NCBI RefSeq assembly: GCF_001550095.1
Contig: NZ_LRUC01000047.1
Coordinates: 1-64,000 of the forward strand
Origin: Celeribacter ethanolicus
GTDB lineage: Bacteria > Pseudomonadota > Alphaproteobacteria > Rhodobacterales > Rhodobacteraceae
Direction: 5' to 3'
Length of the DNA stretch: 64,000 bases
Shown here: positions 33,890-53,350 of the stretch, piece by piece
Position numbering within the stretch: the first letter of the stretch is position 1
Layout of the letters: each line of letters starts with the position of its first letter
Position numbers and translations under genes: made by a program
The notes under the pieces: generated by a model
The model's input: only the letters and a program-made list of their open reading frames with translations
The model's database searches: none
What the model was told of the DNA's origin: nothing

Positions 33890-33950
33890 GGGACCTCCCG
33901 TAAAAACCTGTTGCCTTGCCGCGCGGCTCTATACTACACCGACAGCATTC

Positions 33951-33970
33951 TGATGTCCGGCCACGATTTT
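33951..33970 (+). repeat. Second copy of the 20-base intergenic element
   Basis: TGATGTCCGGCCACGATTTT here matches TGACGCCCGGCCACGATGAT at 32891-32910, with the central CCGGCCACGAT exact. This copy lies in the 114-bp gap between the divergent LysR and M81 genes. Confidence 0.5.
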
Positions 33971-34003
33971 CTCCACCGCAGCAGCGGTACAAGGAAATCG
34001 GAT

Positions 34004-35521
34004 ATGCCAACCAAGGTTCTTCTCGCGCAATTCATGCACGAGACCAACACATTCTCCCACAGGGAAACGGACACGCCCGCCTTCCGCGGCTTCTATTGTT
34101 ATGAAGGTCCGGCGCTGATCCCGGCATTACGCGGCACCGCGAATGAAGTCGCAGGCTTTGTCGATGTGGCCGAGGCCGAGGGCTGGGAGCTTGTACCGAC
34201 GGTGGCGACCTTTGCCACACCGGGTGGTGCAGTGTCGGATCGGGCCTGGTCGGATTTTGCCGGCACCATCCTGCGGATCGCCCAGGAACAAGGCCCGTTC
34301 GACGGGGTTCTCTTGTCGCTGCACGGCGCGATGGTGCGCGCAGATGGACGGGATGGAGATGCGCTTTTGCTGCGTGAGTTGCGGCAGATCGTTGGGCCGG
34401 ACTGCCCGATTGCCGTGACGCTCGATCTGCACGCCAATCTTGCGCCGCAGATGGCGAAGGATGCCGAAATCCTGATGTCTTACAAGACGTTTCCTCATGT
34501 CGACATGCGCGGCACCGGGGCAAAGGCGGCACGGGCGCTGGCCGAGATTTTGCACGGACAGACCGATCTGCGGACTGTGATCCGCAAACTTCCGATGCTA
34601 ACCCTGCCCGAAGGCGGGCGCACTGATCGCGAGCCGATGCAAGGCCTGCAAAAACTGGCGCGCAGCTTGGAGGTCGATGCGCCGGAGATTTGCGACATTT
34701 CAATCAACGCCGGGTTTTCGCTTGCCGATGTGCCGGAAATCGGGCCATCGGTGACCGTCTGTCATCGCGATGCACCGGAGCGTGCCGCGCGGGTCGCCGA
34801 GCAGATTGCCGAGGCAATGTGGCAGGTGCGTGACGAGACCGGAGAACCCATTTTGACACCGACAGAAGCAGCGGAGCTTGCGCGCACGCATGCGGAAAAC
34901 GCGCCTTTGGTTCTGGCCGATCTGTCGGACAATCCCGGCGATGGCGCCTATGCCGATGCCACAGAAGTGCTCGGTGCACTGATAGAGAAAGGCGGCGACA
35001 ACATCCTTTTGGGTGCGTTGTGTGATCCCGATGCCGTGGCGCAGGCGCAGCACGCCGGAGTGGGTGCGCAGGTTGCCCTGTCCCTGGGCGGGCATAGCGC
35101 CCCCGAATTCGGTGGTGCCCCTCTGAAGGTCACAGCAGAGGTGCGAGCTCTGAGCGACGGCACCTTCATCTGCGACGGGCCCATGTGGAACGGTGTCGCG
35201 CAATCCTGCGGTACGGCGGCTCTCTTGCGGATCGAAGACGTGGATGTCTTGGTGTCGAGCATCCCGACCCAGGCCCTCGACATGGGAATCTTCAGGGCAC
35301 TCGGAGCGGAACCGACCCGCTACCGGGTCGTGGCTTTGAAATCGGTCCAACATTTCCGGGCGGCCTATACACCTTACGCCGCAAGAATTGCCCTTGTCGA
35401 TGGCGGCGGCCTGGCAAGTCCCCGCAGCGGTCGCAGGACCTATGATCGCATACCACGTCCGATCTACCCTTTGGATGAATGGCGCGGCACAGATTTTACA
35501 CACTCTGACAAACATACATGA
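34004..35521 (+). CDS. M81-family metallopeptidase (MlrC-like)
   Basis: A 505-aa protein of the M81/MlrC family, named after the third enzyme of microcystin breakdown but widespread in catabolic loci. It has the N-terminal LLAQFMHETNTFSHRETDTP with candidate metal ligands His and Glu, FDGVLLSLHGAMVRADGRDG, IAVTLDLHANLAPQMAKDAE and the C-terminal LADLSDNPGDGAYADATEVL. I chose the ATG at 34004 behind AAGGAAA; the frame opens upstream at 33911 but inside the promoter region. It is divergent from the LysR gene. These enzymes often cleave small peptides or amides, so it may release an amino acid for the neighbouring pathway. Confidence 0.88.
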   Translation: MPTKVLLAQFMHETNTFSHRETDTPAFRGFYCYEGPALIPALRGTANEVAGFVDVAEAEGWELVPTVATFATPGGAVSDRAWSDFAGTILRIAQEQGPFDGVLLSLHGAMVRADGRDGDALLLRELRQIVGPDCPIAVTLDLHANLAPQMAKDAEILMSYKTFPHVDMRGTGAKAARALAEILHGQTDLRTVIRKLPMLTLPEGGRTDREPMQGLQKLARSLEVDAPEICDISINAGFSLADVPEIGPSVTVCHRDAPERAARVAEQIAEAMWQVRDETGEPILTPTEAAELARTHAENAPLVLADLSDNPGDGAYADATEVLGALIEKGGDNILLGALCDPDAVAQAQHAGVGAQVALSLGGHSAPEFGGAPLKVTAEVRALSDGTFICDGPMWNGVAQSCGTAALLRIEDVDVLVSSIPTQALDMGIFRALGAEPTRYRVVALKSVQHFRAAYTPYAARIALVDGGGLASPRSGRRTYDRIPRPIYPLDEWRGTDFTHSDKHT

Positions 35522-35780: not shown

Positions 35781-36737
35781 ATGAGCTCGAGCACAGAGAT
35801 ACAAGATCAGATACGCGAAATCGCATGGATGCATTACGTGGGCGGCCTGACACAGGCACAAATCGCTACGCGCCGTGGTTTGAGCAAGATGAAAGTACAT
35901 CGTTTTGTGCAAACCGCCCATGAACAGGGGCTGGTCAAGATTTTCGTGAACAACGTGCCGACGAATTGCATGGATCTCGAAAGCCGCTTGATCGAGCGTT
36001 ACGGTCTGTCGAGTTGCACCATCGTGCCGGATGTCAATGAGCTCCAGACCATGGATGTCTCGATGCCCGCCGTCGCCAGCGCCGGAGCGCGTTTCCTGCA
36101 TGGCCGGCTGGAGAACACGGACCAGATGATCCTTGGCATCGGCTCCGGGCGCACCATGTCCGCGATTGTAAAGGCCATGCCGACAATCAAGCGTAAAAAG
36201 GCGGAATTCATTTCCGTCACCGGCGATTTTGCGGCCCTGAGCGATGCCAACCCCTTCGAGGTCATTCACGCCCTGATCGACAAGACCGGGGGCAAGGGCT
36301 ACGCCTTCACGGCGCCCTTGATCGTCGACAGCGAAGCGGACCGCGACCTGTTCCTGCGCCAGCGCAGCATTCGTGAGTCCTTCGAGCGGTTGCGCGACGC
36401 CTCCATGATTATGATAGGCGTCGGCCATGTCGGCCCCGGCTCATTTTTCCGCTCTTTCGGCCTGATCACCGACGCCGAACAGGGCGAGATGATCCGCCAA
36501 GGCGTGGCCGCCGACCTCGCGGGCAACCTGATCGACGACACCGGTGCCTTTATCGACAGCGGCATCGCAAAACGCATGTTGGGGATGGAGCGCGACCTGA
36601 TGCATGATCGCGAAATTGTCGCCGTCTGCGCCGGGATCGAGAAATGGCAAGCGGCCCGCGCGGCGCTGCGCTCGGGCCTGCTCAATGGATTCATTTCATC
36701 GTTTAGCGTGGCCCAGCGCATTCTGGACGCCGAGTAA
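35781..36737 (+). CDS. SorC/DeoR-type sugar-binding transcriptional regulator
   Basis: A 318-aa regulator with an N-terminal helix-turn-helix (MHYVGGLTQAQIATRRGLSK, about residues 15-45) and a SorC-type sugar-phosphate binding domain from about 55 (VTGDFAALSDANPFEVIHAL, IMIGVGHVGPGSFFRSFGLI, GAFIDSGIAKRMLGMERDLM). LsrR, which senses phospho-AI-2, belongs to this family. It converges on the class II aldolase gene (9 bp apart) and is the likely regulator of the sugar locus to its right, whose kinase would make its phosphorylated inducer. Confidence 0.88.
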   Translation: MSSSTEIQDQIREIAWMHYVGGLTQAQIATRRGLSKMKVHRFVQTAHEQGLVKIFVNNVPTNCMDLESRLIERYGLSSCTIVPDVNELQTMDVSMPAVASAGARFLHGRLENTDQMILGIGSGRTMSAIVKAMPTIKRKKAEFISVTGDFAALSDANPFEVIHALIDKTGGKGYAFTAPLIVDSEADRDLFLRQRSIRESFERLRDASMIMIGVGHVGPGSFFRSFGLITDAEQGEMIRQGVAADLAGNLIDDTGAFIDSGIAKRMLGMERDLMHDREIVAVCAGIEKWQAARAALRSGLLNGFISSFSVAQRILDAE

Positions 36738-36746
36738 CGGCCACTT

Positions 36747-38018
36747 TTACGCTTTGGGTTTGAGCTTGGCCTGTTCCAGCGACCAGTATTCCATATCGAA
36801 CAGATCGCGCTCATTGAGCGGCGTAAAGCGCCCGATCCCTTCAGCGGCCAGAACGATTCGCGCGGTCTGTTCGGCGAGATCGGCGGCCACACCGGCCTCT
36901 TTTGCCGTCCGCCCGATGCCGACAATGCCGAGCCCCCGGATCAGCGCCACGCGCGGCAGCGGATCGAGCATGGTTTTCGGCTCGTCAGCATGGGGCGCGT
37001 TGCGGTTGAAATAGGCCTCGTACCACGCGGCGAAGCCTTTGATCGCTTCGCGCCAGTCTTCGACGCCGAATGTCGCCTCGCCGATGACCGGACGGGGTTT
37101 GATGCGGATGACGTGATCCGGTGTCGCGGTGCCCCGCCCGGTGATCTCCGCCAGTCCTTCCAAGGCCAGAAAGCAGTCATTTGCCTCGCTGAGGCGCAAG
37201 TCTAGCGCCAGGTTTTCCGCGAAAAGCCCCCATTCCCTCAAAGCGATGCGCAGTGCCGCAACCGCAGTATAAGCCTCAGGGTCCAGCGCTTTGGTGCCGA
37301 CCTCTTCGGGCAACAAGGCCGCGCCTTTCGCGGCAAGATACTCTTCGCACATCGTCGTATAGCGCAGAATGCGCTCGTAAGAGGTGCGGGCATCGTCGCC
37401 AAAGGAGAACAAGCCATGGTTCACCAGAAACTGCCCCGACGTTCCCGCGCCCTCTTGGACATGGATTTGATCCGCCGCGTGCGAGAGTTTGAAACCGGGC
37501 ATGACATAGGGCACGATGCTCAGCTCATCGCCGAAAATCTCTCGGGCGCGCTCGGCGGCGTCCGGTTGATTGGCAATGGCCAGCGCCGCACAGGAATGGG
37601 TGTGGTCGACGAATTTCGCCGGCAAAAATGCGTGCAGCAACGCCTCCACCGACGGGTTCGGCCCGCTTTGGTCCAACATCTCGCGGCGCAGGAAAGCGAC
37701 CATCTCTTCGTCCGACATCGTCGCCGTCTTGCGGGCCTCCAACAGCGGATCGAGCCACATCGCGGGCAGACCCGGCCCCTCGATGGTCGCCAAATCCCAG
37801 CCGGAGCCCTTCACATGGATGACATCGTGTTCGGCGCCGTTCTCGTCGCGCCGCCGGGTTTTGACCGAGGTGTTGCCCCCACCATGCAGCACCAGATCCG
37901 GCTCCTGCCCGATCAGCTGCGACGTATAGACCCGCATCGCAAGATCCTGTTCCGCCGGGTCATCCCCCGCCGCGCGGCGCAAACGCTCCGCTTCCGCTTC
38001 GTCCCAAAGAGACTTCAT
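36747..38018 (-). CDS. Class II aldolase (RhaD/adducin-like), short form
   Basis: A 423-aa protein with a class II aldolase fold: LVLHGGGNTSVKTR near residue 42, and zinc-site type motifs VDHTHSCAALAIAN (about residue 135) and LVNHGLFSFGDDA (about 200). It resembles the aldolase half of the bifunctional rhamnulose-1-phosphate aldolase/dehydrogenase but lacks the SDR dehydrogenase half. Full-length relatives have nearly 700 residues, and no trace of the missing half follows. I chose the ATG at 38018, 8 bases after AAGGAC. It is the last gene of a dehydrogenase-kinase-aldolase operon. The substrate is probably a phosphorylated ketose or keto acid made by the upstream kinase. Confidence 0.85.
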   Translation of the reverse strand: MKSLWDEAEAERLRRAAGDDPAEQDLAMRVYTSQLIGQEPDLVLHGGGNTSVKTRRRDENGAEHDVIHVKGSGWDLATIEGPGLPAMWLDPLLEARKTATMSDEEMVAFLRREMLDQSGPNPSVEALLHAFLPAKFVDHTHSCAALAIANQPDAAERAREIFGDELSIVPYVMPGFKLSHAADQIHVQEGAGTSGQFLVNHGLFSFGDDARTSYERILRYTTMCEEYLAAKGAALLPEEVGTKALDPEAYTAVAALRIALREWGLFAENLALDLRLSEANDCFLALEGLAEITGRGTATPDHVIRIKPRPVIGEATFGVEDWREAIKGFAAWYEAYFNRNAPHADEPKTMLDPLPRVALIRGLGIVGIGRTAKEAGVAADLAEQTARIVLAAEGIGRFTPLNERDLFDMEYWSLEQAKLKPKA

Positions 38019-38040
38019 AATCACATGTCCTTTTCCATAA

Positions 38041-39609
38041 TTACTGTTTCACACGTGCCCCCGCCGGACGCCAGATCGGCTCCAAGCCGGAGGCCTCACC
38101 AAGGTCGCGCACACCGTCAGTCACCTCAGACCAACGCGCTTTCAACGGCGCATAGAGCGCCATGTTGTCCGGATCGGGCACCACGCGGCGTTCGATCGGG
38201 CTGGCCATCGCCGCGACCGCCTCGTCCAGCGTCGCAAACAGTCCCGCCTCCACAGCCGCCAACATGGCGCACCCTAGCGCGGTGGTTTCCTTGACCACCG
38301 GGATCTCAATGTCCCGACCCGTCACATCCGCAATGATCTGCGGCCACAGCCTGCCCTGACTCGATCCACCCGTGAATTGCAGCGTGTCATAACGCTGCCC
38401 CGACAGGGCTTCGAGCGTCTCAAGATGGTGATTGGCCAGGAAGGCCCCCGCCTCCATGACAGAGCGCGCCACCTGTCCAAGCGCCAGTCCCGGCGCGTTC
38501 AGATCGAGGCCCAGAAAACTCAGCGGCGGCTGTTTCCACGCATCCGACTGCATCGGACAGGCCGTGGCGGCAATCGCACCAGCAGAGCCCGCAGGCGTAT
38601 CTTGCGCCAGTTTTTCTATCAGATCGAAGGCGTCAACCTCGCTGCCGGTGAGCTGGAGCAAGGGCTCGAAGAACGCGTCACGGACCCAGCGCAGAGCAAA
38701 GCCGCTCAGAAATCCGATCCCTTCGACCATCCATTCGCCCGGCCGCGCATGGCACAGCGTGCGCGGCCCGAAGGCCGGGTCGATCAGCGGCTGATCCGAC
38801 AGGATCGTCATCTGCCAGAAACTTCCACCAACGAGCGTGGCCTGCCCGGCCCGACGGCCAAGCCCCAGAAGCGCAAGCTGCGTGTCGCCACCGCCCGCCA
38901 CCACCGGCGTACCTTCGGCCAAACCGCAGCGTGCCGCGGCCTCCGGTGTGACTTCGCCGATTTTCGTCCCGGCTTCGACCACCGTCGGCACGGTTTCTTC
39001 CGACAGTCCAATCAGACAGAGCAACTCTTTCGACCAGCCCCGCGCCGCAAGATCGAAAAGCGCACTCGACGAGCCCGCCGTGGGTTCGGTGACATAGGTG
39101 CCGGTCAGCCGGGTTGCCATCCAGTCGGAAATCATCCCGAGGCGATGCACACGCGCGAACACATCGGGACGATTGTCACGCAACCAGTGCAACCGCGCAG
39201 GTGCCGTGATCGACACCCAATCTCCGCCACGGCGGTAAATCTCATCCGAGATGCCCGCCTCGGTCAGCGCCTCGGCCTGAACCTGCGCGCGCCCGTCGAC
39301 ATTCGGACAGGCCCAAAGCACCTCGCCCGCATCGTCGTAAAGCACGATCCCCTCACGCATCGAGGTCGTTGACACGGCGGCGATCTCCCCGGCGGAGATT
39401 TCAGCGGCGACGATGGATCGGGCAATCACCCGGTCAATCAGTTCGCCATTTGGCCCGGTTGTGAAATCCAGACCACCGGGGACACCCTCCACCGCCGGAT
39501 GCACCCATTCTTCCTGAGCACTTCCGACAATCTCACCTCGCGTATTGTAAATAATCGCGCGCCCGCTGCCTGTGCCGGCATCGACCGCCATCACATAGGC
39601 TGTCTTCAT
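38041..39609 (-). CDS. FGGY-family carbohydrate kinase, LsrK-like
   Basis: A 522-aa FGGY kinase. The N terminus (VMAVDAGTGSGRAIIYNTRG) and blocks SMREGIVLYDDAGEVLWAC, GMISDWMATRLTGTYV, GTPVVAGGGDTQLALLGLG and FTGGSSQGRLWPQIIADVTG closely parallel the autoinducer-2 kinase LsrK as I remember it, more than xylulose or glycerol kinases. LsrK phosphorylates linear DPD. The substrate here may be DPD or a similar short-chain sugar. I chose the ATG at 39609 behind GGGAGGAC; the longer frame has no site. It sits between a 2-hydroxyacid dehydrogenase and an aldolase, unlike the classical lsr operon, so catabolism rather than signalling is possible. Confidence 0.85.
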   Translation of the reverse strand: MKTAYVMAVDAGTGSGRAIIYNTRGEIVGSAQEEWVHPAVEGVPGGLDFTTGPNGELIDRVIARSIVAAEISAGEIAAVSTTSMREGIVLYDDAGEVLWACPNVDGRAQVQAEALTEAGISDEIYRRGGDWVSITAPARLHWLRDNRPDVFARVHRLGMISDWMATRLTGTYVTEPTAGSSSALFDLAARGWSKELLCLIGLSEETVPTVVEAGTKIGEVTPEAAARCGLAEGTPVVAGGGDTQLALLGLGRRAGQATLVGGSFWQMTILSDQPLIDPAFGPRTLCHARPGEWMVEGIGFLSGFALRWVRDAFFEPLLQLTGSEVDAFDLIEKLAQDTPAGSAGAIAATACPMQSDAWKQPPLSFLGLDLNAPGLALGQVARSVMEAGAFLANHHLETLEALSGQRYDTLQFTGGSSQGRLWPQIIADVTGRDIEIPVVKETTALGCAMLAAVEAGLFATLDEAVAAMASPIERRVVPDPDNMALYAPLKARWSEVTDGVRDLGEASGLEPIWRPAGARVKQ

Positions 39610-39655
39610 AATGTCCTCCCTGACGATGCCTCCCCGCACCGCCTCGCATTCTGCC

Positions 39656-40699
39656 TCAGTTACAAGGGTTTTTGAGTTTTTCCCCTTTCAGAAAGCGCGC
39701 CAGATCTTCTGCGATCTGTTCGGCGGCGAATGTCGCCACGCGGCGCGATGCACCGGCAATATGCGGGGTCAGGGTGACATTGGGCAATCGCAACAAGTCA
39801 TCGTCGCTTTTGGGGGGCTCCACCTCGAAGGTATCAAGCGCCGCGCCGCCGAGATGTCCGCTGACCAAGGCCTCGCAAAGCGCCGGTTGATCGACCAATT
39901 CGCCCCGCGCCGAGTTCACCAGAACCGCGCCTTTTTTCATCTTCGCGATCCGCTCCGCCGAGATGATACCCGTCGTCTCTGGCGTCACCCGCGCATGCAG
40001 GCTCAGAATATCGGATTGCGCAATCAGATCGTCGATTTCGACCTGTTCGACGCCGTCAATGGCATCCTGCACGGTCAGTTTCGCATAGGGATCGCAGATC
40101 AAGATCCGGCAGCCGAAGGGTTTGAGCAGACGCACCACCCGCTGTCCGATATGGCTGTACCCCAAAAGTCCGACGGTCAGATCCGACAACTCGTCGCCGG
40201 TGCGGTCGTAACGGTAGAGATCGCCACGCCAGATGCCTTGAGACAGCCCGGCATGGCCCACGGTGATGCGCCGGACATTGGCAAGAATTGCGCCGACGGT
40301 GAATTCCGCCACGGCGGAGGCATTGCGCCCCGGAACATTGCACACGGTCACATTGCGGGCGCGGGCCGCTTCCATGTTGATATTGGTCGGCCCTCCGCGC
40401 GAAACACCGATGAATTTCAGGCGCGGCGCTTTTTCCAAAAGCTCTGCGGTCACAGGCGCCAGATGCGTCACCAGAACTTCGGCCTCCGCCAACATGGCTT
40501 CGAGGTCCTTGGGGTTGCCGCTGTATTCCTTGATTTCCGTCCCCGCCGGCCCGTCATACGCGAAGAACGGCACCTCCGGCCATTGCAAATCGCGCGTGAC
40601 CACTTCGCACCCCGCGCCAATCGCATCGCGCACCGCAGTCTCAAAAACCTCCGAAGTGATGAATTGATCGCCGATGGCCGCAATCTTGAGTTTTTCCAT
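39656..40699 (-). CDS. D-isomer-specific 2-hydroxyacid dehydrogenase
   Basis: A 347-aa NAD-dependent dehydrogenase of the SerA-like superfamily. The nucleotide fold has VGLLGYSHIGQRVVRLLKPF, and catalytic Arg, Glu and His candidates lie in VNSARGELVD, DTFEVEPPKSDDD and LTPHIAGAS. The substrate domain (residues 1-110 and the C-terminal 30) is unlike true phosphoglycerate dehydrogenases. I chose the ATG at 40699 behind GGGAGGACGAC. It is the first gene of the operon and has a perfect AT-rich palindrome 31 bp upstream. It probably oxidises or reduces a 2-hydroxy or 2-oxo sugar acid in the same pathway as the kinase and aldolase. Confidence 0.88.
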   Translation of the reverse strand: MEKLKIAAIGDQFITSEVFETAVRDAIGAGCEVVTRDLQWPEVPFFAYDGPAGTEIKEYSGNPKDLEAMLAEAEVLVTHLAPVTAELLEKAPRLKFIGVSRGGPTNINMEAARARNVTVCNVPGRNASAVAEFTVGAILANVRRITVGHAGLSQGIWRGDLYRYDRTGDELSDLTVGLLGYSHIGQRVVRLLKPFGCRILICDPYAKLTVQDAIDGVEQVEIDDLIAQSDILSLHARVTPETTGIISAERIAKMKKGAVLVNSARGELVDQPALCEALVSGHLGGAALDTFEVEPPKSDDDLLRLPNVTLTPHIAGASRRVATFAAEQIAEDLARFLKGEKLKNPCN

Positions 40700-41133
40700 G
40701 TCGTCCTCCCATTCCACGCATCCGCGTTTTGTTATAAATAACTTTACTGATATTTATAACATGTCAAGCTCATTTATGCGCCTGCCGGTCCGGGAAAAAG
40801 CCGGGCCCAGCCCAAAAGGAGGACAATATGAACACCAAAATGCAGACAAAAATCGAAGCGGACAGTCGTGCGCCGCTTCAGAATATTTCCGTCTTCGCCA
40901 ACCCTCTCACCAATGATCGCGGCGAAGTCCCCGATGACGACGGGTGCTCGGCGCTCGAAAGCGAAGCCGCGCTCAGGGCCGCGCGCAACCTTGTCTCCAC
41001 GGTGCCCTCGGCCCTACCGACATCGGAGGACACAGACCGCCACGCGGACGCCCCCCCCCTGAACGCGCATCCCGCCACGAGACAGCAGAAAGCCCCCGCA
41101 ATCGCGGAAGCATTCTGTTGCGCCCGTGTCCGT
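40700..41133. other. Intergenic region with operator and a strong orphan ribosome site
   Basis: This 434-bp gap separates the dehydrogenase and VOC genes, both on the minus strand. It holds the palindrome at 40731-40760. A plus-strand AAAAGGAGGACAAT followed by ATG at 40828 opens a frame with no recognisable product; the frame stays open far into the VOC and permease genes, where it is certainly only a shadow. The start signal is too good to ignore: it may begin a short protein, or be the remnant of a gene whose rest was deleted. Confidence 0.5.
40731..40760. promoter_or_regulatory. Perfect inverted repeat, putative operator of dehydrogenase operon
   Basis: GTTATAAATA at 40731-40740 and TATTTATAAC at 40751-40760 are perfect 10-base arms with a 10-base spacer, 31 bp upstream of the dehydrogenase start in otherwise GC-rich DNA. 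Similar half-sites (GTTATTTAT) occur twice upstream of the ABC binding protein gene. The SorC regulator is the likely ligand, by inference. Confidence 0.65.
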
Positions 41134-41622
41134 TCACTCAGGGTATGTGCGGATCGGTTTCAGGTCGATGGCGTGGCCGGTGCCGGATTCGAGGATCACC
41201 TTCAGTTGCGGCTCGCTGTCGAGGTAATAGAACTCGATGGTCTCGCCGATGCGCCCGCCCATGAGCATCTTTGCGCCCGCCGCATCCATGTCCTTCTTGA
41301 ACTGATCGGCCGCGTCCTGGCCGTGTTTCATCACGGCGACGTGGTGCAGGCCTTCGCCATGTTCTTCGAGCCATTCCTTGTAGATCGAGTCGCCCTCAAG
41401 CGGCTGGATCAGCTCGTAACACATGTCGCCCACCATTACCTCGGCGCAGAGCATCGAATAGGTGGCAGGCTTGCCGTGCAGATGGGTGTCATGCAGCACG
41501 GGAGCAGTGTGTTCGTACACATTCCACGGCCCCCAGCCCAGAAGCTGGTGATACATTTTCATCGTCGCATCCAGATCGCGCACAACGACACCGATCTGAG
41601 TGATTTTGGTTTCCTCGGACAT
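41134..41622 (-). CDS. VOC-family (glyoxalase-fold) protein
   Basis: A 162-aa protein with two beta-alpha-beta-beta-beta modules: TQIGVVVRDLDATMKMYHQL at the start and GLHHVAVMKHGQDAADQF at about residue 91. The layout is as in methylmalonyl-CoA epimerase and glyoxalase relatives. Candidate metal ligands are the His in GLHHVAV and acidic residues in MCYELIQP and TIEFYYLD. It lies in line with the ABC importer genes, 39 bp after the permease, so it probably isomerises or opens an imported sugar-like compound. The specific reaction is unknown. Confidence 0.85.
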   Translation of the reverse strand: MSEETKITQIGVVVRDLDATMKMYHQLLGWGPWNVYEHTAPVLHDTHLHGKPATYSMLCAEVMVGDMCYELIQPLEGDSIYKEWLEEHGEGLHHVAVMKHGQDAADQFKKDMDAAGAKMLMGGRIGETIEFYYLDSEPQLKVILESGTGHAIDLKPIRTYPE

Positions 41623-41661
41623 TCCTCTCTCCTCTTTTGGAATGAAACTGCGGGCGGGGGA

Positions 41662-42642
41662 TTACCCCCGGCCCATTTTGCGTGTGATGGCATCGAGAGC
41701 GACGGCGATCACCACGATCGCACCCGTGACCACCTGTTGCAGGTAGACGTCGACACCGCCCAGCACGATCACATTGCCGATCACCGCAATGATCGCCGCA
41801 CCCAGAAGAGCGCCCCAGATCGTGCCAATGCCGCCCGTGGTGGCGATCCCGCCGATGACAGGCGCGGCAATCGACGGCAAAAGCCAGGATTGCCCCATCG
41901 AGGCCTGCGCCGACACAAGGCGAAAGCACAACAGCATCCCCGCCAGCCCGGCCAATGCACCCGCCACGGCATAGGCGGTGATGCGAACACGTTGTTCGTG
42001 GATGCCGATGATCTTGGCGGCCTCGCGACTGTTGCCCACGGCATAGAGACGCCGCCCGTAGACCGTTTTCGTGGTCAGAAACAGGATCACCAGAAACACG
42101 CCCGCCATGATATAGACCGGCACCGGCACCCCCATGAGCGTACCGCCGCCCAGAACCGTCACCTCTTTCGGCAGGCCCACGATGGTGCGGCCCTTGGTGA
42201 TCCAGAGGTTGAGACCCGAATAGACACTGAGCATGCCGATGGTAACCACCAGAGAGTTCAGGTTGAACATGGTGATGATCGTACCATTGATGGCGCCCGC
42301 AATGGCCCCGACCGCCAGCCCCGCCGAAATGGCGAGCGCCGGATCGAGCTGCGCATCGACCAGAAGTTTGGTGCAGACGATGCCGCACAGCCCCGCGATT
42401 GCGCCAATGGAAACGTCGATGTCGCCGAGCAAAAGCAACATGCCCTGCGCGATGGCTACAATGCCGATAAAGGCAAGATCGCGGGAAATGATCGTCATGT
42501 TGTAGCTCGTCAGGAACTGCGGCGCGACCAAAGACGCGACCACACAGATCACCACAAAAGCGATCAGAACCCCGACGATCTGGCCGCCGTCTTTCAGATT
42601 GAAACCCCGTCTCTGCGTCATGTTCACCAGCCCGTCAGACAT
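41662..42642 (-). CDS. Sugar ABC transporter permease (RbsC/LsrC-type)
   Basis: A 326-aa permease of the BPD_transp_2 family, with about 8-10 helices and family text LAFIGIVAIAQGMLLLLGDI, DVSIGAIAGLCGIVCTKLLV and VYGRRLYAVGNSREAAKIIG (the cytosolic EAA-like loop). I chose the ATG at 42642 behind GGGAGGAAG, overlapping the ATPase stop by 8 bases; the longer frame adds an improbable Arg-rich leader. Only one permease gene is present, so the channel would be a homodimer, unlike the LsrC/LsrD pair. Confidence 0.9.
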   Translation of the reverse strand: MSDGLVNMTQRRGFNLKDGGQIVGVLIAFVVICVVASLVAPQFLTSYNMTIISRDLAFIGIVAIAQGMLLLLGDIDVSIGAIAGLCGIVCTKLLVDAQLDPALAISAGLAVGAIAGAINGTIITMFNLNSLVVTIGMLSVYSGLNLWITKGRTIVGLPKEVTVLGGGTLMGVPVPVYIMAGVFLVILFLTTKTVYGRRLYAVGNSREAAKIIGIHEQRVRITAYAVAGALAGLAGMLLCFRLVSAQASMGQSWLLPSIAAPVIGGIATTGGIGTIWGALLGAAIIAVIGNVIVLGGVDVYLQQVVTGAIVVIAVALDAITRKMGRG

Positions 42643-44131
42643 GGGCTTCCTCCCTGTTTGCGGTCGTCGCATCAAAGGCGCCGCCCGTATTGATAATCGA
42701 GGACAGCAAGCGTTCCTCGCTCAAATTCTCTGCCGCAATTTCCGCGTTGATCCGCCCGTCATAGAGGCTCAGAACCCGGTTGCTGCATTTCAAAAGCTCT
42801 TCGATTTCCGAGGAGATCAGCACCACGGCAATCCCTTGGTCCTCGGCCACCCGTTGCATCAGGCGGTAGATCTCGTCCTTGGCGTTGACGTCGATGCCGC
42901 GCGTCGGTTCGTCGAAAATCATCACCCGCGGATTGGCCATGAGGCCGCGCCCAATCAGCACCTTTTGCTGATTGCCGCCGCTGAGGTTCATGATCTTTGT
43001 GTCAGCCGAGGCGGTTTTGACCCGATAGTCGCCGATGATCTTGGCGGCGGCCTGCGCCTCACGCGCGTCCGACACCACCCCCAGCCGCGCCACGTCGCGC
43101 AGCAAGCCTGCGCCGACGTTCTGACGCACCGACATATGCGGGAAAATCCCATGTGCCTTGCGTTCCTCGGAGAGATACATCACCCCCTTGGAAATCGCCC
43201 GCGCCGGTTTGTTGAACACCCATGGCTCACCGTCGAACCACGCCTGCCCCGTTGTCGGTTTGCGCATCCCGAACAGGGTTTGCAGAACTTCGGAGCGCCC
43301 GGCGCCCACCAGCCCGGCAAAGCCGAGGATTTCACCCGCGTGAAGATCGAAAGAAACCTCTTCGAAGCCGTCGCCAGACAGCCCTTCGACGCGGAACACA
43401 CGGTCGCCACGCGGGGTACGCGGACGGTAGAGCGTGCTCAGGTCCATCTCCTTGCCGGTCATTTTGGAGACGATCCAGGCCTCGGAGACCTCCTCGCCAT
43501 CGGAGTTACCCACAACACAGCCGTTGCGCAGCACGGAGACCACGGAATGCAGCCGCATCACCTCGTCGAGCCGATGGGTGATGAAGACAATCGCCGTGCC
43601 GCGGGCCTGCAACTCTTCGACAATCGCAAAGAGCCGTTCGATTTCCGTCGCGGTCAGAGAGGCGGTCGGTTCATCGAGGATGAGAATATCGGATCGGCGG
43701 CTCGCCAGCGCGCGGGCGATTTGCAAAAGCTGCTTTTCGGCCACCGAAATGTCGCGCACCATGTCATCCGGCGCACAGGTCATCTTCAGGTCCTTAAGAA
43801 AGGGCTGTGCCGCCTTCTCAAGCGCCTTGCGCCGGAACAGCGCGCCATTTCCCAGCGGCAGGAACATGTTTTCCGCCACGGTCATATGGTCGAACAGATT
43901 CAGTTCCTGCGGCACATAGCCAATCGCCGGAGGCGTCGCACCATCGTAGTGCAGATCGCCCTCGTCGGGTCGGTAGATGCCGGTCAGCACCTTGACCAGC
44001 GTGCTTTTCCCCGCGCCGTTTTCGCCGACGATGCAATGCACTTCGCCGCGTTCGAACCGCAAGTCCACCGCATCAAGCGCCACCACGCCGGGAAAGCGTT
44101 TGGTGATGCCACGGGCTTCCAAAAGACTCAT
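42635..44131 (-). CDS. Sugar ABC transporter ATP-binding protein, two-domain
   Basis: A 498-aa protein with two fused ABC domains, the RbsA/XylG/LsrA architecture. The first has Walker A GENGAGKST (residues 36-44) and Walker B ILILDEPTASL; its signature is weak (ISVAEKQLLQIA). The second has the degenerate Walker A typical of this family (GLVGAGRSEVL), the signature LSGGNQQKVLIGRGL and Walker B VMIFDEPTRGIDV. It powers import through the adjacent permease. The stop lies inside the permease start region. It begins 86 bp after the binding-protein gene, with a stem-loop in between. Confidence 0.93.
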   Translation of the reverse strand: MSLLEARGITKRFPGVVALDAVDLRFERGEVHCIVGENGAGKSTLVKVLTGIYRPDEGDLHYDGATPPAIGYVPQELNLFDHMTVAENMFLPLGNGALFRRKALEKAAQPFLKDLKMTCAPDDMVRDISVAEKQLLQIARALASRRSDILILDEPTASLTATEIERLFAIVEELQARGTAIVFITHRLDEVMRLHSVVSVLRNGCVVGNSDGEEVSEAWIVSKMTGKEMDLSTLYRPRTPRGDRVFRVEGLSGDGFEEVSFDLHAGEILGFAGLVGAGRSEVLQTLFGMRKPTTGQAWFDGEPWVFNKPARAISKGVMYLSEERKAHGIFPHMSVRQNVGAGLLRDVARLGVVSDAREAQAAAKIIGDYRVKTASADTKIMNLSGGNQQKVLIGRGLMANPRVMIFDEPTRGIDVNAKDEIYRLMQRVAEDQGIAVVLISSEIEELLKCSNRVLSLYDGRINAEIAAENLSEERLLSSIINTGGAFDATTANREEAHV

Positions 44132-44163
44132 GTCGCGTCTCCCTGAGATTGGCCTGAGAGTGA

Positions 44164-44193
44164 GACCGGGGCATCGCAGAGATGCGCCCGGTC
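44164..44193 (-). promoter_or_regulatory. Stem-loop between binding-protein and ATPase genes
   Basis: GACCGGGGCATC (from 44164) pairs with GATGCGCCCGGTC (to 44193) around GCAGA with one unpaired base, just downstream of the binding-protein stop. It is the usual place for a message-stabilising or attenuating hairpin that keeps the binding protein in excess. Confidence 0.5.
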
Positions 44194-44217
44194 GGTGTCA
44201 TGTCCGACAATCGGATC

Positions 44218-45198
44218 TCAGAAACCGTCGATATTGCCGTTCGCCACCATGTCGGGCGTCATGTAACCGATGCCCGTGTCGATCCAGGACGGCGTTTCCA
44301 CGCCCATGTTCTGAAGCATCAGCGCCACGGTGGACCATTCGCCGATCATACGAGGGCGGGTGGCAATCGAGAGATCGAGCACCCCGTCACGCATCAGTTC
44401 CTGAAGCTGCGGCACATCGTCGATGCCGACGAATTGCACCTCGCCGACACGCCCCGCTTCGCGCAGCGCCAGTCCCACACCAACGGGACCCGCGGCATCC
44501 ACCACGGCGATGGCGTCGAGATCGGCATTGGCCGCCAACATGCGCGAGGCTTCGGTCTGGGCCTTTTGCACATCGTCATAATCGAAGCCCTCGTCGACGA
44601 TCTCGACATCCGGGTATTGCGCGAACAGGTCCTTGAGCGCGTCATAGCGGTCCGCATGGGCGGAGTTGGTCGGCACCCCGTGCAGGATCGCAATTTTGCC
44701 CTTGTTGTCGATACGCTTCAAAAGCTCCTCGCCCAAAATCCGCCCCTGATCGTAGAAGTCATTGGAGATATAGGTGAATTGCGAGCCCTGCGGCGCGGTC
44801 GAGACAAAAAGCACGACCGGGATGCCGCGATCACGGGCTTCGTTGAGGATCGGCATGCTGGCGTTCACGTCGATGGCGTCGATGGCGATGCCGTCGGGTT
44901 TGGTCGCGATGGCGCGCTCCAAAAGCGTGTTTTGTTCGACCAGATCGGCCTGCGCCGGGGCTTGGTAATCGATGGTGATCTTGGTGCCAAGCTGGGCACT
45001 CAACTGTTCCGCCGAATCCGCCGCCGCATCATGAACGATGTCGAACCAAGCCTGCGCCAGAATCGGGATCATCACGAAGCGGTATTCGTCCTTGATCTCA
45101 GGGGCTGCGTCCTGAGCCGACACACCCGTTGCGCCCAGCGATGCGCCAAACACAATGCTACAGGCCGCGACCGACAGGCCGCGCATAAGTTTTCTCAT
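44218..45198 (-). CDS. Sugar ABC transporter substrate-binding protein
   Basis: A 326-aa periplasmic binding protein of the RbsB/LsrB type (peripla_BP_4). The signal peptide MRKLMRGLSVAACSIVFGAS ends near SAQD. Family landmarks are ATKPDGIAIDAIDVNASMPI, NEARDRGIPVVLFVSTAPQG and GRVGEVQFVGIDDVPQLQEL. I chose the ATG at 45198 behind GGGAGGAAAC; the longer frame lacks a signal at its start. It is the first gene of the importer operon. Its promoter region carries two AT-rich direct repeats. The ligand could be a short sugar, given the LsrK-like kinase nearby. Confidence 0.92.
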   Translation of the reverse strand: MRKLMRGLSVAACSIVFGASLGATGVSAQDAAPEIKDEYRFVMIPILAQAWFDIVHDAAADSAEQLSAQLGTKITIDYQAPAQADLVEQNTLLERAIATKPDGIAIDAIDVNASMPILNEARDRGIPVVLFVSTAPQGSQFTYISNDFYDQGRILGEELLKRIDNKGKIAILHGVPTNSAHADRYDALKDLFAQYPDVEIVDEGFDYDDVQKAQTEASRMLAANADLDAIAVVDAAGPVGVGLALREAGRVGEVQFVGIDDVPQLQELMRDGVLDLSIATRPRMIGEWSTVALMLQNMGVETPSWIDTGIGYMTPDMVANGNIDGF

Positions 45199-45632
45199 AG
45201 TTTCCTCCCATGACGGGCATGCCTCCAGGCATGCTCCACAAAAAGCCCCTCTCCTCCAGAAGGACCACTCCAAACCCGCGCCCTTCATGCGCGTTCCCCA
45301 CCAGGGCTCCTCTCCCAGGCCACTGACCTGATGTTATTTATTTCACAAATGTTATTTATATAATTCGACCTGTCAAGGAACATTCTTCTCTTCATCGCCG
45401 ACCGCCCTGCCGCATCAGCTTTTAAGAGATATGCCGTCCCTACGCCCCTTGGTGACCGTGGAACAAAGGGGCAGGCCTGCGCGCAGAGAACCATTCTTTG
45501 CAATTCAGCCCGCCCCTCGGAGGATCAGGCAATGATCGGGTCGGAATGGTCTATCTGTTCCGCGCGTCACCAACCTATCTAACCTTCAACGCAGATGCGC
45601 CTGTTTGCGCGCGGATTTTGAAAGGACACACG
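45199..45632. other. Divergent promoter region between ABC operon and hydrolase gene
   Basis: A 434-bp gap between divergent genes. It holds the AT-rich repeats at 45333-45360 and a TATAAT-like sequence at 45359-45364 on the plus strand. The rest shows no gene; minus-strand frames here lack any protein character. Confidence 0.5.
45333..45360. promoter_or_regulatory. AT-rich direct repeats, putative operator of the ABC operon
   Basis: GTTATTTAT occurs at 45333 and again at 45351, an 18-base period. Both match the half-site GTTAT(A/T)(A/T)AT of the perfect palindrome at 40731-40760 upstream of the dehydrogenase operon. Shared half-sites suggest one regulator for both operons. Confidence 0.55.
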
Positions 45633-46589
45633 ATGGAACTCACTCAGAACTGGGACAAGACTTTCCCGAAGAGCAACAAGGTCGACCACAAGAAGGTGAC
45701 CTTCACGAACCGTTACGGCATCACCCTGGCGGGCGATCTCTATACCCCCAAGACCGAAGGCCCCTTTGCAGCCATCGCCATCAGTGGTCCCTTTGGTGCG
45801 GTCAAGGAACAATCGTCGGGCCTGCATGCCCAGGTGCTGGCCGAGCGCGGATTCGTCACTCTGGCGTTCGATGCATCCTATACCGGTGAAAGCGGTGGCG
45901 AACCCCGCAATCTGGCCTCGCCCGAAATCAACACCGAGGATTTCAGCGCCGCCGTCGATTATCTGGGGCTGCTGCCCGACGTGGATCGCGAACGCATCGG
46001 CATTCTGGGCATCTGCGGCTTCGGCGGCATGGGGCTGAACGCTGCCGCAGGCGACACCCGTATCAAGGCGGTCGCCGCCACCACGATGTACGACATCAGC
46101 CGCATGATGTCGCAAGGCTACTTCGACAGCACCACGAAGGACCAGCGCATCGAAGGCCGCAAGGCGCTGAACGACCTCCGCTGGGCAGATGCAGAGTCTG
46201 GCACCGCCGCCTACGGTCCGACCGCGCTGCAGAATCTTCCGGAGGACGCCCCGCAATTCGTGAAGGAATACGCGGCCTATTACACCGACGAAAACCGTGG
46301 CTTTCATCCCCGTTCGGTCAACTCCAACGGGTCCTGGACGCTGACCACGCCGCTGTCCTTCATGAACATGCCGCTGCTGACCTACATCGACGAGATCGCA
46401 CCGCGCCCCGTCCTGCTGGTCCATGGTTCGGCCGCACACTCGCTCTACTTCAGCGAGACCGCCTATGCCAATGCGGCAGACCCCAAGGAGTTGTTCATCG
46501 TCGAGGATGCGACGCACACCGACCTCTACGATCAGATGGACAAGATCCCCTTCGACAAGTTCACCCGTTTTTTCACTGAAAACCTGTGA
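45633..46589 (+). CDS. Alpha/beta hydrolase with Cys nucleophile (YcjY/DLH-like)
   Basis: A 318-aa alpha/beta hydrolase. The nucleophile elbow is GICGFGG with Cys128 in place of Ser, as in dienelactone hydrolase and the YcjY-like group. Other family text includes GFVTLAFDASYTGESGGEPR, PRPVLLVHGSAAHSLYFSE and the late DATHTDLYDQMDKIP with the candidate catalytic His. I chose the ATG at 45633 behind GAAAGGACA; the frame opens earlier at 45498 inside promoter sequence. An AraC regulator follows 55 bp downstream, a pairing I have seen repeatedly for this family. The natural substrate is unknown. Confidence 0.87.
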   Translation: MELTQNWDKTFPKSNKVDHKKVTFTNRYGITLAGDLYTPKTEGPFAAIAISGPFGAVKEQSSGLHAQVLAERGFVTLAFDASYTGESGGEPRNLASPEINTEDFSAAVDYLGLLPDVDRERIGILGICGFGGMGLNAAAGDTRIKAVAATTMYDISRMMSQGYFDSTTKDQRIEGRKALNDLRWADAESGTAAYGPTALQNLPEDAPQFVKEYAAYYTDENRGFHPRSVNSNGSWTLTTPLSFMNMPLLTYIDEIAPRPVLLVHGSAAHSLYFSETAYANAADPKELFIVEDATHTDLYDQMDKIPFDKFTRFFTENL

Positions 46590-49921: not shown

Positions 49922-50776
49922 TCAGACTTCGGCCTTCACCGGGTTCGACAGCACGCCGACACCGGAGACCTCGACCTCGCAGACATCGCCGTCTTTCATG
50001 AACAGCGGCGGATTGCGGCGCGCGCCAACCCCACCCGGCGTGCCGGAGACGATCACGTCACCGGGCAAAAGCGGCAGGATCGTGGAGCAATAGGCGATCA
50101 GACGCGGGATCGAGCACACCAGCATGTCAAGCGTGGTGTCCTGAACCGTTTCGCCGTTGAGGCGGGTTTGCAGGCGCATCTTGGTGTGATCCCCAATCGT
50201 CTTCGAGATCTCGTCGGCGGTGGTCATCCAAGGACCAAAGGCGCCGGTGCCGGCAAAGGTCTTGCCCGGCATGAACTGATGCGTGTGCTTCTGCCAGTCG
50301 CGCACGGAACCGTCATTGTAACAGGCGTAGCCCGCGACATAATCCATCGCGTCCGCTTCGGAAATGCGGCGGCCCTCCTTGCCGATGATCACGGCAACTT
50401 CGCCCTCATAGTCGAACATGTCGGACTCGAGCGGCTTGATCAGCGCTTCGTTGTGGCCGATCTGAGAGCCCTGATAACGGGCGAAGAGCACAGGATTCGG
50501 GGTCTCTTCGCGTCCGGTTTCCTCGATATGCGCATGGTAGTTCAGACCGACGCAGATGATCTTGTCCGGGTTCGGAATAACCGGATCGTGCTTCACGTCG
50601 TCAAAGGCGTAATCGGCATCGGCGGACACAAATTTCTCAGCCGCCGCCATATCGCCCGTGGCAAGGAAGTCGCGAAGCGTCGGCGCGTCGAAGCGTTTGC
50701 CGAGATCGACGATTCCAGAGTCGTTGACGAGGCCGTAGGAGGACACACCGTCTTTGGTGAAAGAGCAAAGTTTCAT
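49922..50776 (-). CDS. Fumarylacetoacetate hydrolase family protein
   Basis: A 284-aa FAH-fold enzyme with the usual metal-binding text DMFDYEGEVAVIIGKEGRRI (Glu and Asp ligands) and GYACYNDGSVRDWQ, plus the late loop DVIVSGTPGGVGARRNPP. The family hydrolyses C-C bonds of oxo-acids or decarboxylates and hydrates meta-cleavage products. Here it follows the hydroxylase by 2 bp and probably handles the ring-fission product, in place of the alpha/beta hydrolase MhpC, which is absent from this operon. The ATG at 50776 has only a poor ribosome site but is coupled to the upstream stop. Confidence 0.9.
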   Translation of the reverse strand: MKLCSFTKDGVSSYGLVNDSGIVDLGKRFDAPTLRDFLATGDMAAAEKFVSADADYAFDDVKHDPVIPNPDKIICVGLNYHAHIEETGREETPNPVLFARYQGSQIGHNEALIKPLESDMFDYEGEVAVIIGKEGRRISEADAMDYVAGYACYNDGSVRDWQKHTHQFMPGKTFAGTGAFGPWMTTADEISKTIGDHTKMRLQTRLNGETVQDTTLDMLVCSIPRLIAYCSTILPLLPGDVIVSGTPGGVGARRNPPLFMKDGDVCEVEVSGVGVLSNPVKAEV

Positions 50777-50778
50777 GA

Positions 50779-52287
50779 TTAAGCCATTTCCGGTTGTTGC
50801 GTTTCAGAAGAAGGTTGAAGCGGATTGGGGAGGATGCGAGCGATCAGCGCCTCAAGCTCCGCTTTTGTGTCGGCCCCGCCCAGAGTGTGGCGGTCGGGAC
50901 GCAGAACGGTGGCCCTTGCCCCAAGACGGGCGAGGTGATCGGCGGCGTTCGAGTTGTCGGAGGTCACAAGCCCCACGCCATCCGGGAGCGTCAGCCCCTC
51001 GGCCAGATCGGCTTCGGCCACGACGACGAAAGCGTGCGGGAAGGCATCGTCCATCCGTGCGCCATCGCTCATCCGCGGCTGACCGAAAAGACGCCCGGCC
51101 TTGTTGCTGCCATCGCCAAGCCCCGGCCCGATCGGCGGCGCGATGCTTTCCATGCGAGCCGAACCATCGGCGGAGGGCAGAGCGGCGCGCAACGCCTCTT
51201 CGGTGCCGACCGTGTTGATCAGCCCGCCGAGCCGCACGGCGGTCTTGATGTATTCGGCGGCATTGGGTTTGCGCTCGCTCTCATAGGTGTCGAGCAGCTT
51301 TTCGGCTTCCTCTCCCGTGACCAGACCTTTGCAGATCAGCACGAGTTTCCAATAGAGATTCACCACATCGCGGGTGCCCGCGCACATACCCTGGCCCATG
51401 AAGGGCGGGGTCTGGTGACAGGCATCGCCCGCCAGCAACAGCCGCCCTTCGCGCCAATCCTTGGCGACGAGCGAATGGAAGGTGTAGACGGCGGTGCGCT
51501 CCAGCTCGGCCTCGTCGGGTTTGAGCCAGTCCGAGAGCAATTCCCAAACGCATTCCGGCTTGGCGATCTCATGGCTTGCCTCTTCCGGCAGCACGGTGAT
51601 CTCCCACCGCCGCCGCATCCCGGGCGTGCGCACGTAGGTCGCGGGACGTTCCGGCACGCAATACTGGATCGAGTGATCGCCCAGTTCCGGCTTGTCCTCA
51701 TTGAGGATCACATCGACCACGAGCCAGCGTTCGTGAAATCCGTAATCCTCCATATCGCTTTCGATATACCGCCGCACCAAGGAGCGCGCGCCATCGCAAC
51801 CGACGACATATTTGGCGGTGACGTGATGCACCTTGCCCTTGGTCATGTCCTCGTAGCGCAACTCGACCTTGTCGCCTTGGTCGTCGATATTGAACACCTC
51901 GCAGCGCGACCGCACGGTCACCTCCGGGCGATCCGCCATACGGTCCCGCAAAAGCTCTTCGAGGTCAGGTTGGTGGAAGCGGTAGTTCGCATTCCACGCC
52001 TGCGGCCCTTCGCCTTGCGGACGCGGCCAGTCGAGGAGCATCTTGCCGTCCCGGTCGACGAATTGCATGCCGGGGTGGCGATGGGTCTTCGGCGCCATCT
52101 CGTCAGCGATGCCGATCCATTGGAAAGCCCGCATGACTTCGGCGTCGAAATGCACCGCACGTGGCAGGTGATAATGGGCGCTCTCGCGTTCCAGCACGAG
52201 GGTTTTCACCCCGCAGGCCCCCAACAGATGTGCCAGCGTGGCGCCCGCAGGCCCGTAGCCCACAATAGCGACGTCAAAATGCTCCAT
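50779..52287 (-). CDS. FAD-dependent aromatic hydroxylase, MhpA-like
   Basis: A 502-aa flavoprotein monooxygenase of the 3-(3-hydroxyphenyl)propionate hydroxylase type. FAD is bound by GYGPAGATLAHLLG (residues 10-23), the CDGARSLVRRYIE motif in the middle and the GRLLLAGDACHQTPPFMGQG motif near residue 285. A thioredoxin-like C-terminal extension of about 100 residues is present, as in MhpA. It would add an ortho hydroxyl to a phenolic acid and so make the catechol cut by the dioxygenase encoded just upstream. Its ATG directly abuts the dioxygenase stop. The exact substrate is not predictable. Confidence 0.9.
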   Translation of the reverse strand: MEHFDVAIVGYGPAGATLAHLLGACGVKTLVLERESAHYHLPRAVHFDAEVMRAFQWIGIADEMAPKTHRHPGMQFVDRDGKMLLDWPRPQGEGPQAWNANYRFHQPDLEELLRDRMADRPEVTVRSRCEVFNIDDQGDKVELRYEDMTKGKVHHVTAKYVVGCDGARSLVRRYIESDMEDYGFHERWLVVDVILNEDKPELGDHSIQYCVPERPATYVRTPGMRRRWEITVLPEEASHEIAKPECVWELLSDWLKPDEAELERTAVYTFHSLVAKDWREGRLLLAGDACHQTPPFMGQGMCAGTRDVVNLYWKLVLICKGLVTGEEAEKLLDTYESERKPNAAEYIKTAVRLGGLINTVGTEEALRAALPSADGSARMESIAPPIGPGLGDGSNKAGRLFGQPRMSDGARMDDAFPHAFVVVAEADLAEGLTLPDGVGLVTSDNSNAADHLARLGARATVLRPDRHTLGGADTKAELEALIARILPNPLQPSSETQQPEMA

Positions 52288-53280: not shown

Positions 53281-53350
53281 GGTTGTCTCCATTGGTTGAA
53301 ATCGGAATGCCTCAGTTTAGGGGATCTGCTCCCTGACCCCGAGGCGGGAT

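Follow-up and report, generated by a model that had tools for sequence, protein, structure and literature searches.

In E. coli, the phosphorylated form of 4,5-dihydroxy-2,3-pentanedione (DPD), the precursor of autoinducer-2 (AI-2), is isomerised by LsrG and cleaved by LsrF to dihydroxyacetone phosphate (DHAP) and acetyl-CoA, according to the relevant part of PMC8016206. The fate of AI-2 in bacteria without LsrF is called undetermined in a passage of one paper (PMC7828210). In 5-deoxyribose salvage, a class II aldolase splits 5-deoxyribulose 1-phosphate into DHAP and acetaldehyde, as a passage of PMC6079011 has it. Here we analyse an eight-gene locus of the marine-type bacterium Celeribacter ethanolicus (positions 35781-45198), which lies in a stretch of 64,000 nucleotides that we call the window (source genome G000, 4.2 Mb in 52 contigs). 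Its FGGY kinase, judged by sequence, is probably a sister of the AI-2 kinase LsrK. We favour, with about as much doubt as confidence, a DPD-like five-carbon deoxy-sugar or its polyol as the substrate, which would be catabolised to DHAP and a two-carbon fragment.

The locus resembles several described systems in part. With the E. coli lsr operon it shares an LsrK-like kinase, a SorC regulator and a CUT2-family importer, but it has an aldolase of another family in place of the LsrF thiolase, no LsrG, and a binding protein only 27% identical over part of its length. The pSymB-type lsr operon of S. meliloti likewise has an LsrK-group kinase (whose pocket residues are nearly identical), a SorC regulator and a CUT2-family importer, together with a stand-alone RhaE-type aldolase. 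In contrast to that operon, the window lacks LsrG and an LsrB-type receptor, has one permease and an extra dehydrogenase and VOC protein, and its kinase falls in a separate branch (35-43% identity). The S. meliloti erythritol/adonitol/L-arabitol locus also has an RbtA-like dehydrogenase adjoining an FGGY kinase and a class II aldolase, and it holds the nearest SorC regulator. However, its kinase and neighbouring aldolase belong to other subfamilies, no EryB-like protein was found among the ten window-side proteins scanned, and the window kinase (21%) and regulator (34%) fall below the EryA (46%) and EryD (44%) cut-offs. The DHAP shunt of 5-deoxyribose salvage (DrdKIA) is alike in the chemistry that we propose, in which a class II aldolase would convert a phospho-deoxy-pentulose to DHAP and a C2 aldehyde. 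Unlike DrdKIA, the window has an FGGY kinase, a longer RhaE-type aldolase and CUT2-type importer genes; neither an MtnK-type kinase nor an MtnA-type isomerase was found among the ten window proteins scanned. Finally, RhaEW of L-rhamnose catabolism belongs to the same aldolase family, but the window aldolase lacks the fused short-chain dehydrogenase (SDR) domain and lies in a separate clade.

Kinase and aldolase

The earlier note had likened the kinase to autoinducer-2 kinase, and this link proved real. LsrK is its top NCBIfam model (480 bits, cut-off 528; the next, XylB, 196 bits), and E. coli LsrK is its best PDB match (E 1e-105). In a tree of 30 kinases, three Celeribacter kinases and 17 LsrKs form one group (support 100/98), within which the 17 LsrKs stay together (98/99); the joint group recurs (100/99) in a reduced tree from which four long rows were dropped. 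The window kinase thus lies outside the pentose, tetrose and glycerol kinases tested. It is 35-43% identical to the 17 LsrKs, which are at least 50% identical among themselves, and 19-25% identical to ten other FGGY kinases. It keeps 86 of the 129 columns invariant in the LsrKs, and 22 of the 36 LsrK-invariant columns that are not seen in the ten other kinases.

The substrate end of the kinase is also LsrK-like. Of the ten residues listed around the putative LsrK substrate site in a passage of PMC8016206, the window kinase has nine, the LsrKs have eight to ten and the ten other FGGY kinases have one to four. The S. meliloti kinase that we take, like EryD, from its place in the locus to be EryA (21% identical) has three. 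At the positions aligned with glycerol-contacting residues of GlpK, the window kinase has R, E, N, I, D and Q, compared with R, E, N, L, D and Q in six LsrKs, and neither that N nor that Q occurs in any of seven other kinases compared. Assignment to the RhaB, XylB, GlpK, FucK or EryA type was ruled out by the trees and the LsrK-invariant columns. Rather than a known pentose or tetrose kinase, it is probably a sister of LsrK whose substrate end is similar.

The aldolase had been described as short and non-canonical. It is indeed of class II, with the E, HTH and NHG motifs, but it is RhaE-like and 423 residues long, compared with about 220 for the FucA-type aldolases met in this analysis, and it is the usual aldolase of the alphaproteobacterial lsr operons that we examined. 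It is 51% identical to the aldolase of the S. meliloti lsr operon, and in the aldolase tree it groups with the lsr-type aldolase of genome G344 (100/99), apart from 19 long rows of RhaEW length (100/100). Because the trees place both proteins with members of lsr loci, the kinase and the aldolase both trace to lsr-type loci.

As annotated in S. meliloti, Thalassospira, Alloyangia and Paracoccus aminophilus, lsr operons have genes for an LsrG-like protein, LsrK and the regulator that diverge from lsrA, two permease genes, lsrB and, behind lsrB, a class II aldolase gene. The aldolase also follows lsrB in six further Rhodobacterales loci (L035-L038, L040 and L041), two of them in Celeribacter genomes G246 and G212, and in L095 (G776). 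In E. coli, lsrF occupies the position held by the aldolase in these operons. Stand-alone RhaE-type aldolases after lsrB were located in L019 (17729-18979), L020 (9001-10248), L021 (11926-13167) and L022 (8935-10176), and LsrF is absent from these four loci as well as from L035-L038, L040, L041 and L095.

We scanned 25 loci and the window with E. coli LsrF and LsrG. LsrG was present in all 19 lsr-type loci and in none of the seven window-type loci (six loci plus the window), while LsrF was missing from 17 of the 19 lsr-type loci; the two that have it (L032 and L093) show no RhaE-type aldolase in their stretches. The absence of both genes from the locus, as first noted, stands: neither matched between 30 and 50 kb of the window, the region searched for LsrG, and LsrF was not found anywhere in G000 at E 1e-20. 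Among 390 genomes of the order, an unfused aldolase occurs in 11 and an LsrK-group kinase in 12, with both in 10. The stand-alone aldolase is thus found in 10 of 12 LsrK-bearing genomes and in 1 of 378 others (Fisher 4e-17), a figure that depends on an open frame of at most 508 residues as the definition of unfused, chosen after seeing the data, and on related genomes that are not independent. Our literature search found, among the titles and abstract openings of the matches listed, no paper pointing to this locus or to an exchange of aldolase for LsrF, although the primary papers on S. meliloti Lsr and the LsrB receptor may mention it.

Two other arrangements involve these enzymes. A second lsr-like arrangement in Rhodobacterales (L023, L031, L033 and L034) combines LsrK, an LsrR-like regulator, LsrG and the aldolase with an RbsD/FucU mutarotase and a non-LsrB importer, and it possibly serves the import of another AI-2 form or an AI-2 relative. 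In loci that we designate type D, an LsrF about 70% identical to that of E. coli lies beside a non-LsrK FGGY kinase, whose top model was XylB in the two scanned, and a glycerol-3-phosphate-dehydrogenase-like enzyme. The Sagittula and G340 variants have a stand-alone aldolase, G246 has none and Shinella has an aldolase-SDR fusion. In type-D loci L131, L132, L133 and L135, LsrF probably acts in a pathway other than that of AI-2. Type-D loci, where LsrF and the stand-alone aldolase accompany an FGGY kinase that is not LsrK, thus show that enzymes of AI-2 processing are found in other contexts too.

Importer, regulator and dehydrogenase

The importer had been called LsrACB-type, but the likeness is generic. 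There is a single permease, and the top NCBIfam scores of both this permease and the ATPase come from models for arabinose, xylose and ribose. Of the six AI-2-contacting residues of LsrB (K35, D116, D166, Q167, P220 and A222, as given in the relevant part of PMC3386761), the binding protein aligns with A222 only. The LsrBs of L037, L038 and L035, which include those of the canonical lsr operons in two Celeribacter relatives, keep all six. Identity to the S. meliloti and E. coli LsrBs is 25-27% over part of the protein, compared with a receptor criterion of more than 63%. Model scores, low identity and the single AI-2 residue together rule out an LsrACDB importer, and the residue test is strong, though not final, evidence that the binding protein is not LsrB. 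A plastic LsrB binding site has reportedly been seen in Clostridia.

The regulator belongs to the SorC family, as the earlier note had it, but it is not LsrR-like: it is 34% identical to the SorC protein of the S. meliloti erythritol locus, compared with 26% for S. meliloti LsrR and 23% for E. coli LsrR, and it scores 100 bits on the LsrR model of NCBIfam (cut-off 486). The solved structure closest to it by sequence is LsrR. The VOC protein and the dehydrogenase are present where they had been reported. The former matches PDB 3gm5 (E 2.5e-12), and no similarity to it could be detected in the VOC gene that lies near the lsr operon of S. meliloti.

These results bear on the possibility that the locus scavenges AI-2 itself through a non-LsrB importer. 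The kinase would then yield phospho-DPD, the VOC protein would replace LsrG, the dehydrogenase would reduce the diketone and the aldolase would release DHAP and acetaldehyde. The LsrK-like pocket and an aldolase from the family of alphaproteobacterial lsr operons are consistent with this, as is the lack of LuxS in G000, a trait shared with Lsr-positive S. meliloti according to a passage of PMC3386761. Four of the six genomes with an intact copy of the window kinase, moreover, have no second LsrK-group kinase at E 1e-60 (G000 is without one at this threshold), so the locus could be an AI-2 system there. However, canonical lsr operons occur within the genus, the other two carriers (G246 and G212) have one on another contig, and no dehydrogenase of this family occurs in the lsr loci that have the same aldolase. 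Because the binding protein fails the LsrB test, the regulator and importer are not Lsr-type and two intact carriers have a canonical lsr operon as well, the AI-2 scavenging that the earlier note proposed is weakened, and more so by the lack of LsrG in the locus and of LsrF in the genome. We consider it rather unlikely. Better supported is the other proposal of that note, in which the kinase scaffold serves another short sugar.

Over 345 residues the dehydrogenase is 53% identical to an RbtA-like enzyme of S. meliloti (identified as RbtA by elimination within the published 17-gene locus), above the 50% RbtA cut-off of PMC3599248. In the erythritol/adonitol/L-arabitol locus, the S. meliloti counterpart is flanked by one gene for a kinase and one for a FucA-type aldolase. 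Matches to the dehydrogenase at E 1e-90 occur in 19 of 390 genomes of the order, three of them Celeribacter. In stretches of about 4 kb around 16 non-Celeribacter matches, a class II aldolase adjoins in 14 and an EryA-like kinase in 8, with at least one of the two in all 16. The three genes also adjoin one another, in the order kinase-dehydrogenase-aldolase or dehydrogenase-aldolase-kinase, in annotated plasmid loci of P. seriniphilus, S. meliloti, P. denitrificans and Sagittula. At L027 and L028 (Paracoccus and Sagittula), a dehydrogenase-aldolase-FGGY kinase run is accompanied by three CoA-transferase genes, an acetolactate-synthase-like enzyme and a molybdopterin oxidoreductase.

The locus might be a pathway for a tetritol, a pentitol or a tetrulose, built like the erythritol-adonitol-L-arabitol one of S. 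meliloti but with EryA replaced by an LsrK-like kinase. This would fit the dehydrogenase and the regulator, whose nearest SorC protein comes from the S. meliloti locus, where lalA-rbtABC act on adonitol and L-arabitol (a passage of PMC3599248). It would also fit a second, CUT1-type importer kept by the relatives: its ATPase scores above the cut-off of the glycerol-3-phosphate UgpC subfamily model, and its binding protein has distant matches only, to trehalose/maltose and sorbitol types. Set against this are the lack of an EryB-like protein among those scanned, the low identity of the kinase to the presumed EryA, which has few of the LsrK pocket residues, and the statement in part of PMC3599248 that S. 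meliloti needs no fucA1 for these polyols. On balance, we hold a polyol pathway of this type to be unlikely.

Conservation, a lost importer and a shared upstream site

The eight genes form three units. The SorC gene stands alone on the + strand; on the - strand, the dehydrogenase gene leads the kinase and aldolase genes, and the binding-protein gene leads those for the ATPase, permease and VOC protein (Table 1).

Table 1. Features of the locus in window coordinates; where the open reading frame (ORF) extends farther, its limit is given in brackets.
Feature	Position	Strand	Basis
SorC-family regulator, EryD/LsrR-like	35781..36737	+	Pfam Sugar-bind, 155 bits; identity comparisons
Stand-alone RhaE-type class II aldolase	36747..38018 (ORF open to 38024)	-	Aldolase_II; identity; tree; motifs
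FGGY kinase, probable LsrK sister	38041..39609 (ORF open to 39639)	-	NCBIfam; PDB match; trees; pocket residues
D-2-hydroxyacid dehydrogenase, RbtA-like	39656..40699 (ORF open to 40717)	-	2-Hacid_dh; identity; neighbours
TTGACA box and operator-like site of the dehydrogenase-kinase-aldolase operon	40730..40767	-	11-bp perfect inverted repeat
Remnant of lost CUT1 ABC importer	40828..41110 (ends approximate)	+	blastn and tblastn pieces of binding-protein gene; junction past VOC gene
VOC-superfamily protein, methylmalonyl-CoA-epimerase-like; last gene of importer operon	41134..41622	-	Glyoxalase_4; PDB 3gm5
CUT2 ABC permease	41662..42642 (ORF open to 42675)	-	BPD_transp_2; top NCBIfam model AraH
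CUT2 double ATPase	42635..44131	-	Top NCBIfam models AraG/xylose/RbsA; LsrA ranks sixth
Periplasmic sugar-binding protein	44218..45198 (ORF open to 45288)	-	Peripla_BP_4; 1/6 LsrB AI-2 residues
TTGACA box and operator-like site of the importer-VOC operon	45332..45376	-	Pattern match

The kinase is intact in 6 of the 20 genus genomes searched (G000, G783, G246, G773, G782 and G212), and in a seventh carrier, G772, it is split over two overlapping frames. The nearest named loci are those of Celeribacter naphthalenivorans EaN35-2 (kinase 96% identical) and C. halophilus CGMCC 1.8891 (91%). All eight genes are found, in the same order, in six other Celeribacter genomes, G772 among them. Ratios of non-synonymous to synonymous substitution (dN/dS) are 0-0.11 for every gene in comparison with L030, L091 and L092 (for the L092 kinase, the larger piece only), and the VOC protein has no amino-acid change relative to two of these three relatives. 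All eight remaining genes are under purifying selection. Because they recur in the same order in six relatives with such low dN/dS, the locus is not a chance assembly.

Outside the genus, the kinase found nothing above 43% identity in samples of 390 (order), 385 (class) and 398 (phylum) genomes, which overlap slightly and in which the best candidates per genome were scored at thresholds that exclude remote kinases (1e-80, 1e-80 and 1e-70, respectively). Among plasmid records, the best-ranked kinase place reached 40% identity, and none of the best 40 of 883 records reached 60%. A scan of genome contigs, which registers close relatives only, gave two kinase-locus matches, both in Celeribacter. 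Within the genomes searched, intact copies of the locus were found only in Celeribacter.

In all six relatives, a divergent CUT1 importer (binding protein, two permeases and ATPase; four of four genes in each) lies between the VOC and dehydrogenase genes. The corresponding gap at 40.8-41.1 kb of the window is a scar of this second importer: it retains three pieces colinear with the intact loci L029 and L030 by blastn, and pieces of 56 and 39 residues of the CUT1 binding protein by tblastn. Because such scraps remain where six relatives keep all four genes, the window strain has lost the importer. This loss, together with the split kinase frame in one relative, could be taken to mean that the locus is decaying and has no present function in this strain. 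We think this very improbable, given that the eight remaining genes are open and their dN/dS values low against three relatives.

A TTGACA box followed by an AT-rich site (ATAAATAWCANTNNNGWWATWWATAACA) lies upstream of both the dehydrogenase and the binding-protein genes, and the copy on the dehydrogenase side is also a perfect 11-bp inverted repeat. At up to three mismatches, the pattern occurs at two places only in the whole 4.2-Mb genome (the dehydrogenase-side one on both strands), and a reversed control pattern gave no match genome-wide; as the pattern was written from the two sites that it finds, the result lies in its uniqueness and not in its presence. Among other loci, L003, L004, L029 and L030 have the dehydrogenase-side site, and L030 has the importer-side site too. 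An obvious candidate to bind this operator-like site is the SorC regulator encoded next to the two operons.

An M81 peptidase gene (33911-35521) and an alpha/beta hydrolase gene (45498-46589) were rejected as parts of the locus, being unmatched in the stretches of the six relatives, which end at or soon after the binding-protein gene (that of L030 also soon after the SorC gene). The hydrolase gene is divergent from the importer operon and weakly matches a quorum-quenching lactonase model (58 bits, cut-off 400). Farther on (49922-53292), genes read from their ORFs as an FAD monooxygenase, an extradiol-dioxygenase-like and a fumarylacetoacetate-hydrolase-like protein look like an aromatic catabolic cluster.

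A proposed pathway and its place among AI-2 enzymes

The reading that we favour is a substrate-induced uptake and catabolic regulon for a small five-carbon compound, for example a 1- or 5-deoxy-pentulose or the corresponding polyol, that would be like DPD at the CH2OH end but not in its oxidation level. The substrate would enter through the CUT2 importer (in the relatives, through the CUT1 importer too) and be phosphorylated at its primary hydroxyl by the LsrK-sister kinase. The RbtA-like dehydrogenase would then make a single two-electron change toward a 1-phospho-2-ketose, which the Lsr-type class II aldolase would cleave, releasing DHAP and either acetaldehyde or acetate as the two-carbon piece. 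We guess from the superfamily of the VOC protein that it possibly performs the carbonyl shift for which lsr operons have LsrG. Control of both operons would lie with the SorC protein, which may respond to a phosphorylated intermediate and would act at the operator-like site that they share. By deduction, isomerised AI-2 phosphate and 5-deoxy-pentulose 1-phosphate are one two-electron step apart. A substrate related to DPD but more reduced would call for just such a dehydrogenase alongside the LsrK-like kinase and the Lsr-type aldolase, an idea that the type-D loci support. The proposal also draws on the trees that set LsrK and the Celeribacter kinases apart from other FGGY kinases, the pocket residues, the grouping of the aldolase, the neighbours of the dehydrogenase in 16 of 16 other loci, the shared site at these two promoters only, the binding protein that is not LsrB, the two carriers with a canonical lsr operon and the aldolase chemistry of 5-deoxyribose salvage. 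What the analysis shows is gene content, homology, where kinase and aldolase are placed, the LsrK-like residues of the pocket, the upstream site in common and purifying selection; the substrate, the sequence of reactions and what the VOC protein, the dehydrogenase and the regulator do are inferred.

Several observations weigh against this proposal, in addition to the carriers that lack a second LsrK-group kinase. The pocket is so near that of LsrK that DPD itself may be the kinase substrate. The reduced tree, with its long-branch warning, supports an LsrK clade without the window kinases at 82/85 only. The dehydrogenase formally belongs to a 2-hydroxyacid family, and its action on a phospho-ketose is one that we infer. 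The genome-wide pattern scan found no copy of the shared site before the SorC gene. As to the exchange of the aldolase for LsrF, it does not hold strictly outside lsr operons, since the two co-occur in type-D loci; at the lsr locus of G231, neither LsrF nor a stand-alone aldolase is found nearby.

More tentatively, and with doubt outweighing confidence, we suggest that alphaproteobacterial AI-2 breakdown and deoxy-pentose catabolism may draw on one enzyme pool. LsrK-group kinases, Lsr-type class II aldolases and LsrF would be reshuffled together with a redox enzyme, which is RbtA-like in the window and glycerol-3-phosphate-dehydrogenase-like in type-D loci, and different five-carbon deoxy-compounds would in this way be turned into DHAP and two-carbon units. 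The locus itself would be the pathway of an LsrK sister for a substrate that is not a signal.

With an AI-2 kinase as its top NCBIfam model, the window kinase is easily misread as a sign of AI-2 quorum sensing, although the receptor, regulator and processing enzymes do not fit. As an LsrK sister with the same pocket residues in another setting, it is a natural comparison for studies of LsrK specificity. The aldolase found in the place of LsrF in alphaproteobacterial lsr operons is a wider matter, directly testable, that may merit more attention than the window locus itself; if the one-pool suggestion is true, it would answer how lsr operons without LsrF finish the breakdown of AI-2.

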